The position numbers and the translations under genes are program-made. Positions 42,539 to 51,632 of a DNA stretch of 64,000 nucleotides are shown one piece after another (the first letter of the stretch is position 1; every line of letters starts with the position of its first letter). Below the pieces are notes generated by a model. It worked only from the letters and a program-made list of their open reading frames with translations, was not told the DNA's origin and searched no databases. Origin of the DNA: Actinomycetota bacterium (GTDB taxonomy: Bacteria > Actinomycetota > Actinomycetes > Nanopelagicales > Nanopelagicaceae); the NCBI GenBank assembly GCA_947449535.1, contig CANFRP010000004.1, positions 1 through 64,000 on the forward strand, read 5' to 3'.

Positions 42539-45223
42539 TTACTTACCAGCTAGTTGACCTACAGAGGATGCAATCTCTTCCAGTGCTGCCGCAATTTTAG
42601 AAGCATCGCTTCCTCCTCCTTGGGCGAAATCATCGCGTCCGCCGCCACCACCACCAAGAATCGCAGACCCAGTCTTTACGAGAGCCCCCGCTTTAACACC
42701 TAATTTCTGGGCAACATCGCTGGCTGCTACAACAAGTGAAACACGATCCTCGCCACGAGAGACCAGAATGACAACACCATTCTTTAGTCGATTACGTAAA
42801 TCAGTCGCAATCGTACGAAGATCATCGCCCGAAATTCCATCGCCGAGTTCTGCGCAAATCATCTGCAGATCACCGACATTTGTGGCCTTTGATAACAAAG
42901 CCGCGGAGTTGGCTAGCGCCTGTGAAGTTTTAAATGCTGCGAGTTCTTTCTCTACCGTCTTCATTCGCTCGATCATTTCAGAAATGCGCTCTGGAAGTTC
43001 CTCAGTGCGCGATCCTTTTATCAAATCGGTCAGGGAGTTGAGAAGAATGTGCTCTCGAGCAAGAAAACCAAATGCATCATGACCGACCAAAGCTTCAACT
43101 CGTCTGACACCAGCACCAATAGATGATTCGCCCAATAATTTAACTAGTCCTAATTGCCCAGAAGTAGTGACGTGGGTTCCACCGCATAATTCATGAGCCC
43201 AATCTCCCACGCTAACAACACGCACTTGATCACCATATTTCTCGCCGAAGAGCGCCATTGCTCCCATTGCCTTCGCTTCTGGCTGGGTCATGGTTTGTGC
43301 TGTGACCTCTAAATTTTCAAGGAGCAGTGCATTTACACGCGACTCAACGTCACCGAGCACTGATGCTGGAACAGATCCAGTCGCGGGAAAATCGAATCGG
43401 AATCGACCAGGAGCGTTCTCTGAGCCAGCTTGGGTAGCGGTTTCACCTAGAGCTTCCCGAAAAGCTTTGTGAACCATATGGGTGGCGGTGTGTGCACGAG
43501 AAATTGCAAGGCGACGCTCACGATCGATAGTTGCTAGTGCGCCATCATTCACAGACAGCGCGCCAGAAATAACTTGGCCACGGTGGATGTAGAGGCCAGG
43601 AACCGGAGATTGAACATCATCAATTTCAACAATTGCGCCATTACCTAAAGTAATTCGCCCACCGTCGGGGAGTTGTCCACCCCCTTCTGAATAGAAAGGT
43701 GTTCGATCGAGGATTAGTTCCACATCAGCATCTACTGGAGCTTCATTAACACTCTTGCCATCAATAAGAATCGCCTTCAATGTTGCTTCAGATTGCATCT
43801 CCGAGTAGCCAGTAAATGTCGTAGCGCCAATAGCATCGATGATTTTTCGATATTCGCTAACATCAGTATGGCCAGTCTTCTTTGCTCGAGCATCGGCTTT
43901 CGCGCGATCCTTCTGTTCCTTCATTAATTTACGAAAACCATCTTCATCAACAGATAGACCAGATTCTGAGGCCATCTCCAGGGTTAAATCGAAAGGGAAA
44001 CCATAAGTGTCATGCAACTTAAATACGGTATCCCCAGCAAGCTTGGTTGACTTAGCGCTCTTCACTTGGGTTGCTGCCAGATCGAAGATTTGAGTTCCGC
44101 TCTTCAGAGTAGCCAAGAAGGACTCTTCCTCGTTTGTGGACACCGCAAGGATTCGTTCCTGACCGGCAACAAGTTCTGGATACTGTGGACCCATTGCTCC
44201 GATAGAAGCCTTAATGAGCTCTCCCATATTTCCATCTGGTGCACCCAAGATTCGCATATTGCGAATTGTGCGACGCATCATCCGACGAAGAACATAACCA
44301 CGTCCTTCATTTCCAGGTAGAACGCCATCGCCCACCAACATCATCGACGTTCGAGCATGGTCAGCCACCACTCGAAGCGATATATCACTCTTTTCATTTG
44401 CGCCATATTTAACGCCGCTGAGCTGCGAGGCTCGAGCAAGAATTTGCATGGTTGTATCAATCTCATAAATATTTTCAACGCCCTGCAAAAGGGCCGCAGT
44501 ACGCTCTAGGCCAAGACCAGTATCGATATTTTTTGCTGGAAGTTCTCCAAGAATTGGGTAACTATCTTTGCTGGTTCCTTCACCTCGAACATTTTGCATG
44601 AAGACCAGATTCCAAATTTCGAGATATCGATTTTCATCTGCAATCGGGCCACCATCGGCTCCATATGCTGGACCACGATCGAAATAGATTTCCGAGCAAG
44701 GACCACATGGACCTGGAACACCCATGGACCAGAAATTGTCCGCCATATCGCGACGTTGGATTCGCTCCCGAGGGATGCCGATCTTCTTATGCCAAATCTC
44801 TTCCGCCTCGTCATCATCTTTGTAGACAGTTACCCACAACTTTGATTCCGGAAATCCATAACCACCATCAGAAATCGGTTTGGTTAATAACTCCCAGGCA
44901 AGTGAAATCGCGCCCTCTTTAAAGTAATCGCCAAATGAAAAATTTCCGCACATCTGGAAGAAACTTGCATGACGAGTGGTTTTGCCGACTTCGTCAATAT
45001 CTAGCGTCCGAACACATTTCTGTACTGAAGTCGCTCGAACAAATGGAGCCTTCACTTCGCCAAGAAAATATGGTTTAAAGGGAACCATGCCAGCATTAAC
45101 TAGCAAAAGGTTTGGATCATCAGCGATTAACGAGGCCGAGGGAACAACGGTGTGGGTTAGTCCCTGACTATTGCCAGACTCAAAGAAGCTCAACCAACGT
45201 GAGCGAATTTCTGCGGAGTTCAA
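42539..45223 (-). CDS. alaS: Alanyl-tRNA synthetase
   Basis: 894 residues, full length. Catalytic core with class II motifs ([52 protein letters not shown]), the editing domain with zinc ligands in HTATH and CGGTH, and a C-terminal C-Ala domain ending in the glycine-rich [15 protein letters not shown] motif. Charges tRNA-Ala. It begins directly after the DUF948 stop. Confidence 0.98.
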
Positions 45224-45613
45224 TTAAAACTCTGACTCTTCCTCGGCGGTCTTCTTGCGGCGTTTACGAGGCGCAGCATCTTTCTTCAACTTTGCGGCTG
45301 TCAAAAGCCCCCCAGCTACCTTCATAGCCATGGAATTCTTATCCACGAAATTTCCTGTGGCGTTAGTAATCTTTGTTGCAACTTCTTCGACTGACTTTGT
45401 CACTCTGTTAATGCTTTGAAGTGGCCCATTGATGAGCTCTGCCGTTGTCGTTACCTCGTGAAGCAAAGGTGTCGCTTCCTCAGTAATAGCTTTGATGGAG
45501 ACACTAGCCTCGTCGATCAATCTGCCAAGGCGCACGATTGCATAAGCGATCGCGGCAGCGATAATTGCCAGCGATGACGCTGCAATAATTGTGGCAATTC
45601 CTCCTGGACCCAT
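45224..45613 (-). CDS. DUF948 membrane-anchored protein
   Basis: 129 residues: one N-terminal transmembrane helix (GIATIIAASSLAIIAAAIAYAIV), then a long amphipathic helix region with heptad-like spacing (LIDEASVSIKAITEEATPLLHEV to VEEVATKI) and a lysine-rich tail (KRRKKTAEEE). DUF948 proteins are common beside alaS in actinobacteria; function unknown. TAGGAT sits six bases ahead of the ATG. Confidence 0.85.
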   Translation of the reverse strand: MGPGGIATIIAASSLAIIAAAIAYAIVRLGRLIDEASVSIKAITEEATPLLHEVTTTAELINGPLQSINRVTKSVEEVATKITNATGNFVDKNSMAMKVAGGLLTAAKLKKDAAPRKRRKKTAEEESEF

Positions 45614-45660: not shown

Positions 45661-47907
45661 TTAGAAGCGGGGAATTTCCACCGACGGTTTCTCATGAGAA
45701 ATATGTGCCTTCGCGGCCGCCTGGTGGTACTTCTCAATCTGAGCCAGATTTCGCTTGGACAAATAAGGGGTTCCATCCACTAACGGTCCACGAGATCCCG
45801 TCATGACAGCCGTCACATCATCTCCAGAAATCGTCTTATGGATTTCTAGCGCATGGGCCAGAGCTAAAACTTTATTTCGATTCTTTGCCAAGATTCGTTC
45901 TGCTTCGCCCAGCAATGTTCGTAAATTATCTTCAATTCGATCGCCTAGTGCTTGTCTCAGGTCGGGCGCGCCTTTCCCCTTTTCGCCTTTTCGACCGCCC
46001 GGTGCGCCTACTTCAAAGCGGCGATTGGAAGCGTGTGATGAAATTGTCGAGCCCATTCCCCAATGACCTTCCATAAAGCTAGCCACAGTTGTTGCAGATT
46101 CTAAGTCGCCAGATACGCCACTGGAATTATCGCCACCGAAGAATGCGCGCTCTCCTGCAAGGGATGCAAGTGAAACTAAAATATCGGCCTTGTACTCCGA
46201 TTTCCATCTCGTGAATTGATCATCAGGTGGAATGCTCGCCACCATTCCCAGATAATCAGATCCCTTTTCAATTGTCGCCAGATCAATTTCCATATGCTCT
46301 CGCACTAGGTAGGCCATAACTCCATGACAGGCTTCGTGAATGGCTACCGCATGACGCTCTCGCTCAATATATTCGACATCCTCAGATGGGCCAAGGTCCT
46401 TGAGTTGCTTTGCTTTAACAACATCCGTCCACGTTAGAGATGTCCGACCGTCGCGAATAGCCATGATCAAGGCCTCGTTGATGGTGTCTTTGATTGTTGC
46501 ACCAGTCGCATAAGGCGTAATGGTTGCCAACTTATCGATCTCACCCGCGCTCAATGAATGTGAAACTTTTGCTAAATATCCTTCATAAGTTCGCACTCGA
46601 CCAGCTTTGCTTGGATATCCCACTCGATACATACGATCGATTCGACCTGGACGAAGAAGTGCCTCATCTAGCGCCTCCGGCATATTCGTGGCCATCACAA
46701 CAAGAATTCGATATTTAGGTGGACTCTTTGGGCGCATGCCCAAAGTCTTTCGAACAATACGATTGAAGAAACCGCGCGGCTTCTTAAGTCCAGAAAGTTC
46801 GGTCAAGAGAGCTTGGAGAGTTCCCATTCCCCCACCGCCGCCGCCTTGCCCTCCGGCTCCTCCGACTACAAATGAATCACGCAAGATCAAGGCACGCGCT
46901 GGATCTGATAAGTAATTCCCGCCATGACACGAGGATCCAAACGCTTCGACTGATCGTGCGCTACCGGTGGAGATTCCTCGATTGCCCAAGGAATCAGCCT
47001 CATCGAAAAACACAACAACTCCACCGTAACGAAGCGAGAGCTTGCGCAACTTTCTAAACAAGGATTTCACTTTCATCACACCAACACCGAAGAACATTGC
47101 ATTAAATGCACCTGGGTCAACAAATACAAATGGTTTGCCAGTTTCACCGGCCATAGATTCAGCCATCAAAGTTTTACCAGTTCCGGGAGGGCCCCAGAGC
47201 AACAATCCGCCGGGGACATATCCGCCGTGGCTTTCAATTTTCTCTGGAGATTCCAAGAACAACAGATTTTCTCGGATCCGGTTGAGTACGTGATCTTGGC
47301 CCCAGACATCCGAGAAGCGGGTGCGAATATCATCCGGGAAATAAACATCGATACCACCGCGACTCAAAAACCAGAACATCGCGACAAATTGAATAACGAT
47401 AAATACGACGGCAAAAAGGAGCTGTCCCAGAATAGGAAGCGCGGACCAAAGCGCCTTTGGTGCGAGGAAAAGCGCCTTTATTGGAGTCTCTTTGTAAACC
47501 GCGCCAAGGATAAATGCTAAAAGAACGATGAAGAGGATTACTTTGAAAATTCGGGAAATGCGATAACGGGTCCAATCCCCTAATAGGTGAATCGCGCGAT
47601 CGACAAACGAGAAATATTTCTGCCAAACGCCATGATAGGGAGCCAGAAGCTCAGCCAACAAGAAGTGAATCTGGCGAACAAATTCAATCGCAAAGAGAAC
47701 AAGGAGCCAGCCGCGCTTACTTACTCCAGCGCTCACTCCATCGCTAAAGCTCAGTAATGGATTATCTGCAAGATCTGCCCACACAAGGACTAGGAAAGTT
47801 ATGGTGAAGAGCGAGAGAAATTTAGTGCGATCGAAAGGCGTTAAATGGATCCGAACTTTGCGTTCGTCATCCTTTATTCGACCTGAGGGCTGGAGATTTT
47901 CGCTCAT
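45661..47907 (-). CDS. FtsH/M41-like membrane AAA protease, divergent
   Basis: 748 residues. Four predicted membrane segments occupy about residues 30-190, against two in FtsH. The AAA domain has Walker A GPPGTGKT at 239-246, pore loop MFFGVG, Walker B VVFFDEADSLG, a glycine-rich insertion of roughly 45 residues after Walker B (GGAGGQGGGGGG), sensor ATN and arginine fingers in RPGRIDR. The M41 zinc protease domain has HEACH at 524-528 and the third ligand Asp601 in SGDLESAT, so all catalytic residues are intact. The C-terminal part has a basic GGRKGEKGKG patch. It overlaps the upstream lipoprotein gene by four bases. Probably degrades or extracts membrane proteins; substrates unknown. It is clearly not the canonical FtsH architecture. 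Confidence 0.87.
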   Translation of the reverse strand: MSENLQPSGRIKDDERKVRIHLTPFDRTKFLSLFTITFLVLVWADLADNPLLSFSDGVSAGVSKRGWLLVLFAIEFVRQIHFLLAELLAPYHGVWQKYFSFVDRAIHLLGDWTRYRISRIFKVILFIVLLAFILGAVYKETPIKALFLAPKALWSALPILGQLLFAVVFIVIQFVAMFWFLSRGGIDVYFPDDIRTRFSDVWGQDHVLNRIRENLLFLESPEKIESHGGYVPGGLLLWGPPGTGKTLMAESMAGETGKPFVFVDPGAFNAMFFGVGVMKVKSLFRKLRKLSLRYGGVVVFFDEADSLGNRGISTGSARSVEAFGSSCHGGNYLSDPARALILRDSFVVGGAGGQGGGGGGMGTLQALLTELSGLKKPRGFFNRIVRKTLGMRPKSPPKYRILVVMATNMPEALDEALLRPGRIDRMYRVGYPSKAGRVRTYEGYLAKVSHSLSAGEIDKLATITPYATGATIKDTINEALIMAIRDGRTSLTWTDVVKAKQLKDLGPSEDVEYIERERHAVAIHEACHGVMAYLVREHMEIDLATIEKGSDYLGMVASIPPDDQFTRWKSEYKADILVSLASLAGERAFFGGDNSSGVSGDLESATTVASFMEGHWGMGSTISSHASNRRFEVGAPGGRKGEKGKGAPDLRQALGDRIEDNLRTLLGEAERILAKNRNKVLALAHALEIHKTISGDDVTAVMTGSRGPLVDGTPYLSKRNLAQIEKYHQAAAKAHISHEKPSVEIPRF

Positions 47908-48563
47908 GGTTTACCTTTCACAGTAAAAGAAGCGGCGATCGCATCGAGAACGCCCTTTTCCTTTTGGTATTGGTCGGCGGGAGATCGAATTATCAGAAGG
48001 TAGATCGTCATTCGATCATCTGAAACAAGAGCGGTTTCATCGATCACTTGCGCAACACCATCCTTGCCGGTGTAATTAAAAACTGTTCTGATTCCGCGAG
48101 CGTTGCTCTCGACTCGTTCCTGATCATCGATGAGGGCAAAAGTAGTGGGTGCGCTGGTGGGATCGTTCAGCCAAGTAGTTATAGGGACAATAATGTCCCG
48201 CAATTGATTGTACGAAACGCTATTTGCTTCATCTGCTGAGAGAACACGAACTCGGCCTAACACCACTGGCTCTGGGGTTCCCCGCAACGAGAAAACATCA
48301 GCTGGGGTTATTTTTCCGGTAAGTGAATACGCCTCTTGCCAGAGGACTTCTGTTCCTGTACCCGATCCATTATTGGCTTCGGCTTCTTTAGCGTTAAGTG
48401 CGTTTTGAGATATTTTCTTCCAACCATTGGGAAGAGTAAAGAAAGTTGATTCCTTTTTACTCCCGGCATATATCTTTGATTGAGCGCAGCTGGTGAGGCC
48501 CATACTGGAGAGAAGGAGAACGAGAACCAACGCTGTTCGCGTCGCAATTCTCCGTCGATTCAT
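47904..48563 (-). CDS. Lipoprotein of unknown function
   Basis: 219 residues. A basic N terminus, hydrophobic stretch (ALVLVLLLSSMG) and lipobox LTSC with Cys26 mark a lipoprotein exported by Sec and anchored outside the membrane. The mature part has no motif that I recognise; it contains FFTLPNGWKKIS and, towards the end, beta-rich YNYTGKDG-like and DDRMTIYLLIIRSPADQYQ segments. Its stop overlaps the start of the AAA/M41 protease (ATGA), which suggests joint function on opposite membrane faces; that is inference. Confidence 0.83.
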   Translation of the reverse strand: MNRRRIATRTALVLVLLLSSMGLTSCAQSKIYAGSKKESTFFTLPNGWKKISQNALNAKEAEANNGSGTGTEVLWQEAYSLTGKITPADVFSLRGTPEPVVLGRVRVLSADEANSVSYNQLRDIIVPITTWLNDPTSAPTTFALIDDQERVESNARGIRTVFNYTGKDGVAQVIDETALVSDDRMTIYLLIIRSPADQYQKEKGVLDAIAASFTVKGKP

Positions 48564-48578
48564 CTGCGGAATTCTGCC

Positions 48579-50339
48579 TTATTTTGCGGGAGTTGTCTCC
48601 GCTACGAAGTCGACGCCTGCTTCTTTCCGCTGCGGCGCTGTAATTGGCGTTGGGGCTCCGGTGAGCGGATCGCCACCACTCGCAGTCTTAGGGAAAGCAA
48701 TAACTTCACGGATGGATTCCGCACCGGTAAGTAGCGCGCATAAACGATCTAATCCCAGAGCGATTCCACCATGTGGAGGTGGACCGTAGTTGAAAGCCTC
48801 GAGGAGGAATCCAAACTTGCTCTCGGCCTCTGCTTGAGAGAGACCGATGGTCTTAAATACCCGAGCTTGCATGGCTCGATCATGAATTCGAATTGATCCA
48901 CCACCGATCTCATTGCCATTGAGAACAATGTCGTAGGCATACGCAAGAGCGGAAGCCGGATCGGAATCAAAGGAAGCTGCAAATTCCGGCTTTGGACCGG
49001 TGAATGGGTGGTGCACAGCCGTCCATCCGCTATCTGGATTGGCACTGTCAATCTGTTCAAACATAGGTGCATCAACCACCCACAAGAACTCCCATTTACT
49101 TGAATCAATGAGATTGCAACGTTTTCCAATTTCTAACCGAACTGCTCCAAGGAGATTGAGTGATGAAATGCGATCTCCGGCAGCAAAAAAGATTGCATCT
49201 CCGCGGCTTGCGCCAACAAAAGCTGCGATCTCTGCGCTCTCTTTTTCCGAAAGATTCTTCGCCACAGGTCCAGCAAGAGTTCCATCTTCTTGAACCAAGA
49301 TATATGCCAAACCTTTAGCCCCGCGCGCTTTCGCCCAATCTTGCCAAGCATCTAGTTCGCGACGAGCAGAACTCGCACCCCCTGGCATAACCACGGCGCC
49401 GGTATAGGCGGATTGAAATACTCGAAAAGTCGTATCTTTGAAAAATTCCGTGACATCAACTAGCTCGTTAGCAAAGCGAAGATCTGGCTTATCTGATCCA
49501 TATCGGCGCATTGCTTCCCAATAAGTCATCCGGGGAATCGGCAACGGTATCTGGTAATTAACTACCTTCTTAAATACTCGAACCAGAATCTTCTCGGCAA
49601 CCTTAAGGACATCTTCTTGATCAACAAAGGACATTTCTATATCGAGTTGGGTGAACTCTGGCTGGCGATCTGCCCGGAAATCTTCATCGCGAAAACATCG
49701 TGCAATTTGGTAATAACGCTCCATGCCAGCCACCATCAGAAGCTGTTTGAAAAGTTGCGGAGATTGCGGCAGGGCGTACCACGACCCGGGTTGAAGTCTT
49801 ACTGGTACCAAGAAATCACGCGCACCTTCTGGGGTTGAGCGAGTCAGATATGGAGTTTCGATCTCTAGAAAATCTTCATCATCCATAACGCTGCGAATCT
49901 CTGAAGTAACTTTAGATCGCAAACGCAGATTCTTTGCCGGACCTTCTCGTCGAAGATCCAGATATCGATATTTCAGTCGAATTTCTTCGCTGATATTTGA
50001 GAGATCGCCGCTGTCAACAGGGAAAGGTAATGGTGCGGCTTCGCTGAGAACGGTTAGTGATTCACAATCAATTTCAATCTCGCCAGTCGGAATATTCGAG
50101 TTCGCGTTGCCATCAGGGCGAATCCCCACTGTGCCAGTCATGAGAATGCACCATTCAGCGCGAAGTGAGCCCGCCACGCTTTCATCATGGATTACCACTT
50201 GGACCGCACCGCTTGAATCCCGAAGGTCAATAAAGGCGACTCCGCCATGATCGCGACGACGTGCTACCCAGCCAGCTAAAGTAACTATTGTGCCAGCGTC
50301 ACTAGCGCGCAACTCGCCTGCATTGTGTGTACGTAACAT
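48579..50339 (-). CDS. aspS: Aspartyl-tRNA synthetase
   Basis: 586 residues, bacterial type. N-terminal OB-fold anticodon domain ([26 protein letters not shown]), catalytic core with [43 protein letters not shown], the GAD insertion domain, and class II motif 3 near GIALGLDRL. Whether it also charges tRNA-Asn (with GatCAB) cannot be told from sequence. Start ATG 50339 rather than the preceding TTG. Confidence 0.97.
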
Positions 50340-50378
50340 CAAATCCCGTTTCTCATCTTAATTAGGCAAACTGATTAT

Positions 50379-51632
50379 CTAAAACTCGTTGTGCAAGGCC
50401 GCTAGTCTAATTGATCGCGATTCACCCGTTGACATATTTTTGAGCATCGCTTCTCCGGAGTTCAGTTCATCACTGCCGATAACCATGCTAAATCGGGCCC
50501 CGCTCTTATCTGCCGCCTTCATCGATCCCTTGAGAGCGCGATCTCCGTATGCCATATCAGCACGTATTCCGTGATTACGGAGCGAATTGAGGAGATTGGC
50601 CACGTAGGATTTTGTCTCCTCCGACATTGCGATCAGAAAAAGATCTAAGGAATAAGCCTCGGAAATTTTCGTGGAGATGGAATTTTCTGCCGCACAGGCA
50701 AGTAGTACTCGGTCCACGCCAATGCCAAAGCCAATTCCGGAATGATCGGCTCCGCCTAACTGTGCCATCAAGCCGTCATATCGACCGCCACCACCGATAC
50801 CAGATTGCGCGCCTAGGCCATCGTGAACAAATTCAAAAGTAGTACCGGTGTAGTAATCCAAACCGCGGACCATTCGTGGATTTACGATGAAAGCAATCCC
50901 GAAGGAGGTGAGCAAACTTTGTACTCGTTCAAAATGATCTTTACTTGCCTGGTTTAAGAAATCTATCAGTAGCGGGGCTTTCGCCATTTTTAACCGAACC
51001 TCATCGCGCTTATCATCGAATAATCGAAGTGGATTTAGCGCGGCGCGAGCCATGGTCGCCTCATCAAAATCTAAAGTCGCAATAAATTTAACAAGTTCAA
51101 CTTTATGTAGCGCGCGAGATGCGGCATCACCCAAAGAGGTGATTTCCAGACGATAATTTTTCAATCCCAAATTCTTAAAGCTACGATCAGCAACTGCTAT
51201 TACTTCGGCATCAATCTCAGGATCGGCGAGGCCGATTGCCTCAATACCTACTTGGTAGAACTGACGATAGCGTCCTGCTTGTGGACGTTCGGCTCTGAAA
51301 AATGCCCCGGAATACCAAACTTTAAGTGGCAACTGACCTTTATCAAGATTGTGCTCAATCACCGATCTCATAACACCGGCAGTACCTTCCGGGCGAAGAG
51401 TGATGGATCTTCCTCCGCGATCTTCAAAGGTATACATCTCTTTACTCACAACATCCGTACTTTCGCCGACACCCCGAGTGAACAAATCCGTGTCTTCAAA
51501 AGCTGGCAATTCCATCAATTGATAACCAGCGTCCTTCGCTGACTTAATTAAGGTTTCGCGAACATATTCAAATTCTTGAGATTCCGGAGGGAAAAATTCG
51601 TGAACACCTTTGGGGGCTTGAATCTTGCTCAT
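50379..51632 (-). CDS. hisS: Histidyl-tRNA synthetase
   Basis: 417 residues. PKGVHEFFPPES at the N terminus, RPEGTAGVMRSVIEH (motif 2), histidine-binding YYTGTTFEF and SGIGGGGRYDGL, then motif 3 and a C-terminal anticodon-binding domain starting near DLFLIAMSEE. GGGGGAG six to seven bases ahead of the ATG is a strong ribosome binding site, two bases past the MBL-hydrolase stop. Confidence 0.97.
   Translation of the reverse strand: MSKIQAPKGVHEFFPPESQEFEYVRETLIKSAKDAGYQLMELPAFEDTDLFTRGVGESTDVVSKEMYTFEDRGGRSITLRPEGTAGVMRSVIEHNLDKGQLPLKVWYSGAFFRAERPQAGRYRQFYQVGIEAIGLADPEIDAEVIAVADRSFKNLGLKNYRLEITSLGDAASRALHKVELVKFIATLDFDEATMARAALNPLRLFDDKRDEVRLKMAKAPLLIDFLNQASKDHFERVQSLLTSFGIAFIVNPRMVRGLDYYTGTTFEFVHDGLGAQSGIGGGGRYDGLMAQLGGADHSGIGFGIGVDRVLLACAAENSISTKISEAYSLDLFLIAMSEETKSYVANLLNSLRNHGIRADMAYGDRALKGSMKAADKSGARFSMVIGSDELNSGEAMLKNMSTGESRSIRLAALHNEF

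Follow-up and report, generated by a model that had tools for sequence, protein, structure and literature searches.

The window analysed here, a stretch of 64,000 nucleotides from a Nanopelagicaceae genome (contig CANFRP010000004.1, positions 1 to 64,000), encodes a lipoprotein and an adjoining four-TM AAA/M41 protease. The protease is best read, by sequence comparison, as a second, non-canonical member of the FtsH class that exists beside the ordinary FtsH of the same genome. The gene pair stays adjacent throughout a large phylum, which suggests that lipoprotein and protease work as one machine. We hold it moderately probable that the two form a membrane protease in two parts, in which the lipoprotein would dock at outer loop 1, supply the outer domain in trans and play a role towards substrates.

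Results

Gene neighbourhood

The two genes adjoin; both lie on the minus strand and are flanked by aspS on one side and by DUF948/alaS on the other (Table 1). They are part of a co-directional series, hisS-aspS-lipoprotein-protease-DUF948-alaS, wider than the two-gene operon proposed in the first-pass annotation, and this order was found again in most related loci of sufficient length. The names aspS, hisS and alaS are presumed from homology to tRNA synthetases. The four-base overlap that the annotation had reported between the pair is present at 47904-47907, with both ORFs at the coordinates given there, and it may couple the translation of the two genes. Since 4-bp overlaps between neighbouring genes are common in bacteria, the evidence lies in the conservation of this one and not in its mere presence: a complete lipobox ORF adjoins the protease gene in 66 of 80 loci on named contigs, and 53 of these 66 pairs have the same overlap. 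Among the other 14 loci, nine are without lipoprotein, three are cut (L098, L103, L104), one holds a partial copy (L039) and one (L111) has two tandem lipoprotein copies further upstream of a single protease gene. Two copies of the whole pair were seen in one genome, G577 (L213, L214).

Scanning for regulatory sequences returned 5 promoter-like sequences where 12.7 were expected, and 11 terminator-like sequences where 11.7 were expected, that is, at or below chance. A PADLOC search for a defence role gave AAA-level matches only for the protease and no match for the lipoprotein.

Table 1. Features of the lipoprotein-protease locus (positions in the window unless a locus is named; aa, residue numbers in the protein)
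Feature	Position	Strand	Remarks
hisS	50379..51632	-	upstream neighbour
aspS	48579..50342	-	upstream neighbour of lipoprotein gene
Lipoprotein gene	47904..48563	-	219 aa; ORF; predicted PsbP/Mog1 fold (AF2, structure comparison)
Lipobox cysteine Cys26	48486..48488	-	LTSC, aa 23-26; invariant in 67/67 aligned lipoproteins
Lipoprotein/protease gene overlap	47904..47907	-	4 bp
Four-TM AAA/M41 zinc protease gene	45661..47907	-	748 aa; ORF, Pfam, alignment
TM helix 1	47764..47838	-	aa 24-48; hydropathy, AF2
Outer loop 1	47713..47763	-	aa 49-65; NPLLSF.D motif, Pro50, Asp56
TM helix 2	47644..47712	-	aa 66-88; hydropathy, AF2
TM helix 3	47494..47577	-	aa 111-138; hydropathy, AF2
TM helix 4	47362..47436	-	aa 158-182, inside predicted helix 142-182; hydropathy, AF2
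Walker A GPPGTGKT	47170..47193	-	aa 239-246; invariant (78 orthologues)
Pore-loop motif MFFG	47086..47097	-	aa 271-274; M271, F272, G274 invariant; aligns with MFVG of own FtsH
Walker B region	46993..47019	-	aa 297-305; D302, E303 (invariant)
Insert 1, after Walker B	46846..46971	-	aa 313-354; Gly-rich, conserved Cys327; about 42 residues beyond own FtsH
Insert 2	46717..46779	-	aa 377-397; basic, strongly conserved; about 21 residues, before sensor-1 strand
Zinc motif HEACH	46324..46338	-	aa 524-528; H524, E525, C527, H528 invariant in 78
Third zinc ligand Asp601	46105..46107	-	by homology; invariant in 78; aligned with own FtsH
DUF948 gene	45224..45613	-	downstream neighbour of protease gene
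alaS	42539..45223	-	downstream neighbour
PDZ-TPR lipoprotein genes	L227:1141-2427; L238:1218-2414		directly before four-TM protease, PsbP-type missing

A second FtsH-class protease with four membrane segments

In Pfam searches the window protease matched AAA with 85.1 bits and Peptidase_M41 (PF01434) with 84.3 bits, above the gathering cut-off of 29.9, while FtsH_ext gave no match at E<=1. Its score on the NCBI FtsH equivalog TIGR01241 was 239.2 bits, below the curated cut-off of 600. The genome itself (1.455 Mb in 60 contigs, 94% complete) encodes another M41 protein of 697 aa, with 834.7 bits on TIGR01241 and 34.9 bits on FtsH_ext; judged by these profiles, this is the canonical FtsH of the genome, and the window protein is thus not its only, ordinary FtsH.

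Four rather than two membrane segments had been claimed for the protease, and this agrees both with the hydropathy peaks (aa 30-48, 67-85, 120-138 and 163-181) and with the helices of the AF2 model (24-48, 66-88, 111-138 and 142-182), where pLDDT is mostly about 80-93. The four helices leave two short outer loops, so the protease would have no outer domain of its own. The ATPase part of the model is poor, with a mean pLDDT of 60.6 and a pTM of 0.36 overall, making it unfit for docking; a structure search with this low-confidence model ranked FtsH chains on top and had Ycf2-FtsHi chains among the matches.

The active-site motifs, including the HEACH motif and Asp601 that the annotation had described as intact, are invariant in 78 aligned orthologues, as are N408, R422 and R425. 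HEACH is typical of the family, HEASH being found in one distant member (L237). From the invariance of the Walker, pore, HEACH and D601 residues, an active ATP-driven protease is expected. Two invariant cysteines, Cys327 in the Gly-rich insert (46927-46929) and Cys527 in HEACH (46327-46329), might form a redox or metal switch. Members from large genomes (L124-L134) have much longer protease ORFs, of about 970-1020 aa, and two protease frames (G037:C104:515-2788 and G646:C43) have one internal stop each, TAG and TGA, as possible pseudogenes or assembly errors.

Compared with the genome's own FtsH, the ATPase domain has two inserts (Table 1). The Gly-rich insertion of about 45 residues noted earlier after Walker B is real, at about 42 residues, but it is not unique to this protein. 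Both inserts, together with the cysteine of insert 1, also occur in a second actinobacterial M41 family (L143-L158, 16 members fetched, three aligned), which is about 34% identical to the window protease, shows, by hydropathy, one or two TM peaks with a short loop and no large outer domain, and reads HEAGH in the three aligned members; one member, L149 (L149:2722-4710), gave no FtsH_ext match. The Gly-rich insert was therefore rejected as a hallmark of the protease-lipoprotein unit. In a FastTree phylogeny of 121 rows, the window family (104 rows) and the L143-L158 family (16 rows) were separate clades, and the window family stood apart from FtsH as well, in a tree that has long branches and a single canonical FtsH row. 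The count of lipoprotein-bearing rows in this tree is one too high, L098 being included though its contig is cut. Several f38 genomes encode both a paralogue of the L143-L158 type and a member of the window family.

A fast-diverging lipoprotein with a predicted PsbP/Mog1 fold

The lipoprotein has a signal peptide with a lipobox cysteine. Its AF2 model has a pLDDT of 92.0 and a pTM of 0.84, and structure comparison predicts a PsbP/Mog1 fold for it. The best match was CyanoP (2xb3, Z 14.4, rmsd 4.0, with 150 residues aligned from a chain of 155), followed by a Jonesia protein (3lyd, Z 14.0), DcrB (10.9), LpqN (10.8) and Eag chaperones (about 9-10); Foldseek agreed on the fold (E 3.5e-06). Sequence identity to these structures is only 4-16%. 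Against Pfam PsbP (PF01789), the window lipoprotein scored 15.2 bits, below the gathering cut-off of 23.5, and 48 of 67 lipoproteins matched the profile at E<=0.05, the best of them at 1.8e-05. The lipoprotein diverges much faster than its neighbour: identity to the window copy is 32-48% for lipoproteins, compared to 58-80% for proteases.

Co-occurrence of the pair

Some AAA/M41 match was found in all of 100 relatives, and the lipoprotein in 42 of them. With thresholds of E<=1e-90 for the protease and E<=1e-6 for the lipoprotein profile, the 394 genomes of the class, among them the one analysed here, yielded 69 with the protease and 64 with the lipoprotein. In each of these 64, the lipoprotein gene immediately preceded that of the protease, in the same orientation, and there was no case of the lipoprotein without the protease. 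Of the five genomes with protease and no detected lipoprotein, three (G067, G277, G418) have a contig end where the protease starts or inside it, and two (G042, G337) are truly without it. Across the whole family (296 genomes), the protease was present in 98, the lipoprotein in 86 and both in 84; the 14 genomes with protease only comprise 11 of genus g17, G045, and two (G448, G637) whose protease match starts from the end of a contig, and the two with lipoprotein only are both fragments at contig ends. No intact lipoprotein without protease was seen in the class, family and phylum searches.

The pair extends beyond the class. A sample of 296 genomes from the phylum gave matches to the protease at E<=1e-100 in 21 further genomes, all from outside the class. 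Twenty of these were examined (G891 was left out), and a PsbP-type lipoprotein was adjacent in 14; the remaining six had a different lipoprotein (two), no lipoprotein (G734), a cut locus (G850) or a protease of another subfamily (G723, G820). The pair also stays together away from aspS/alaS, as seen in L061, L064, L065, L070, L077, L080, L100 and L102. Co-conservation of the lipoprotein with the protease, which the first-pass annotation had named as a check, is borne out by the 64 adjacent pairs of the class and by those of other classes. Several sequences titled Bifidobacterium breve, Fonsibacter or Streptomycetaceae (L046, L065, L066, L067, L074, L078, L087) group with Nanopelagicales-like sequences and are probably mislabelled MAGs.

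Losses and replacement of the lipoprotein

Both genes are absent together in G009, G010, G027, G047 and G052, where DUF948 and alaS come next after aspS or its end; the stretch of G052 starts at the end of aspS and was placed by coordinates. A further genome, G029, resembles these and has a small membrane-protein-like ORF (123 aa, L175:281-652) between aspS and DUF948.

The lipoprotein alone was lost, with the protease kept, in genus g17, in G045 and, in another family, in G337. On the tree, two changes are required to account for the losses among its rows (G337 is outside it), and a search of the whole family for further independent losses returned only genus g17 and G045. In other classes, the PsbP-type lipoprotein was lost in G734 and in two genomes of family f54. 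Such losses in several protease-bearing lineages indicate that the protease can exist outside such a unit and that the lipoprotein is dispensable. In the two f54 genomes (G686, G672), the place immediately before the protease gene is taken by another lipoprotein, one with matches to PDZ and TPR. Their loci, L227 and L238, were considered as lipoprotein-less and rejected as such, the upstream sequence encoding this different lipoprotein. The gene before it, which we take to be that of DNA polymerase III delta', is similar in both genomes, the two copies matching each other.

Changes in outer loop 1

Most lineages in which the lipoprotein is missing have an altered outer loop 1, by sequence comparison. 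In a clade of eight lipoprotein-less sequences, both strictly conserved loop-1 sites (P50, D56) were changed, compared to 12 of 395 conserved sites elsewhere (Fisher's test, P = 0.0012), a value to be read knowing that loop 1 is one of 15 regions, singled out after the data had been seen, and that independent losses are few. The loop-1 background excludes L085, which is without lipoprotein, and L111, which is distant. Ten of eleven control clades had no change at conserved loop-1 sites, and the other, c3, had one of three changed; two control clades, K12 and c79, still contain L085.

Of 106 distinct sequences with a PsbP-type lipoprotein, 104 had an acidic residue at position 56, compared to 2 of 13 without; these 13 are not independent, representing about five lineages, and include G686 with its PDZ-TPR lipoprotein. 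For this count, loci cut by contig ends were excluded and identical TM regions counted once, and L238 lies outside the alignment. The two bearers without an acidic residue have Val (L229) and Gln (L236). Among the sequences lacking the PsbP-type lipoprotein, G045 has Asn49-Pro50 changed with Asp56 kept, and L097 and L238 also keep an acidic residue, the loop of L238 reading PSLVFAEA. G337 has lost the acidic residue that is present in six lipoprotein-bearing relatives, and within the f54 pair residue 56 has become Leu in one genome, Glu being kept in the other.

Evolutionary rates

The comparison of distances used the 42 loci, out of 66, that were complete. Distances of the lipoprotein correlated with those of the protease (0.771), and the partial correlation given the three tRNA synthetases was 0.456, with 0 of 1000 permutations as high; as a control, the partial correlation of lipoprotein and aspS given alaS and hisS was -0.034. 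Given the shared locus, the common inheritance of the pair is partly an effect of linkage. Partial correlation with the lipoprotein was 0.155 for loop 1, which was not the strongest region, compared to 0.469 for the ATPase domain, and this counts against a simple docking story.

Discussion

We propose that the protease forms a membrane-anchored, ATP-driven ring, presumably a hexamer as in FtsH. The lipoprotein would dock at its outer loop 1, where it may recognise or deliver damaged membrane or secreted proteins, or gate the ring; delivered proteins would be pulled through the membrane and degraded in the cytosol, which would give the pair a function in quality control. An outer domain in trans is favoured by four observations taken together: the protease has none of its own, the lipoprotein is never found intact alone, loop 1 differs in most lineages where the lipoprotein is missing, and in one family another lipoprotein has taken its place. 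The coupled unit suggested by the first-pass annotation is partly supported: the protease is not an ordinary FtsH, and its neighbour has been conserved beside it over long evolutionary distances, but several lineages have kept the protease and lost the lipoprotein. A broader idea, that split membrane proteases occur phylum-wide, with the FtsH outer domain replaced by an exchangeable lipoprotein (usually of PsbP fold, in one family of PDZ-TPR type) and one cytosolic ring refitted with different outer sensors, is put forward tentatively, as somewhat more likely to fail than to hold.

The same losses could mean that the lipoprotein is an envelope protein in its own right, acting in the same process without ever touching the protease and kept in the operon for convenience, since its loss alone is tolerated and contact is something we only infer. 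We think this unlikely: adjacency persists across the classes of the phylum and away from aspS/alaS, loop 1 is altered in most losses, and another lipoprotein occupies the same place in one family. The protease might also signal by turning over the lipoprotein, which would then be a dedicated substrate or an inhibitor. The much faster divergence of the lipoprotein would suit such regulated proteolysis, and regulator and protease genes are often paired. An acyl-anchored lipoprotein with no cytosolic part should, however, be hard to grasp for a ring facing the cytosol, no constant regulator gene stands beside the pair, and the PDZ-TPR replacement better fits a binding role, so that we regard this reading as distinctly improbable.

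Two further readings concern the protease itself, and we give either very little credence. If it were an ordinary FtsH that had diverged at the N-terminus and did the usual FtsH work, its AAA and M41 domains and intact motifs would be explained, but this is already contradicted at the level of sequence by the canonical, FtsH_ext-bearing FtsH of the same genome, by a score of 239 bits where 600 is the cut-off, and by its place in a separate family of the tree. The Ycf2-FtsHi chains among the structure matches could hint at a likeness to the chloroplast motor of that name: a machine whose chief task is to unfold or extract proteins, and for which proteolysis is a side activity. FtsHi proteins have lost the protease site; here all 78 orthologues have kept the zinc ligands, and the matches come from a structure model of low confidence.

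If the two-part protease that we favour is true, its outer sensing part is a separate gene whose loss or replacement mostly goes along with changes in loop 1, and substrate choice could be tested by swapping lipoproteins. The freshwater actinobacteria of the source group, which we take to be the abundant acI group, would gain a second, unstudied envelope protease. How FtsH-class proteases choose their membrane substrates is described as largely open (PMC12067869). Full-text searches of an open-access library listed no description of such a protease-lipoprotein pair.

Among known systems, the window protease has in common with FtsH (TIGR01241) the AAA module, lid and M41 domain, the pore motif, RPGR.DR and HExxH plus Asp. 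It differs in its four TM helices instead of two, the lack of FtsH_ext, the two ATPase inserts, a HEACH motif with invariant Cys, and the partner lipoprotein. The two-TM M41 paralogues share the inserts and are set apart by TM number, zinc motif and clade, and the Ycf2-FtsHi type motor by the intact protease site of the window protein. FtsH typically has one or two TM helices, according to a review (PMC9020784), and a second FtsH homologue of Streptomyces lividans, 'FtsH3', had mild deletion effects (PMC5994538).

PsbP/CyanoP, DcrB, LpqN and the Eag chaperones have their fold in common with the lipoprotein, at the low identity given above, and we know of none that is an FtsH partner. Eag chaperones hold TM helices (eLife 62816), and binding of membrane segments by the lipoprotein is on this ground conceivable, no more. 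A precedent is FtsH-HflKC, in which an outer-face partner regulates the protease: in E. coli, HflK contacts an outer loop of FtsH (PMC12067869). A contact of the same kind is what we infer here, with the difference that HflKC consists of single-pass SPFH proteins and not of PsbP-fold lipoproteins.
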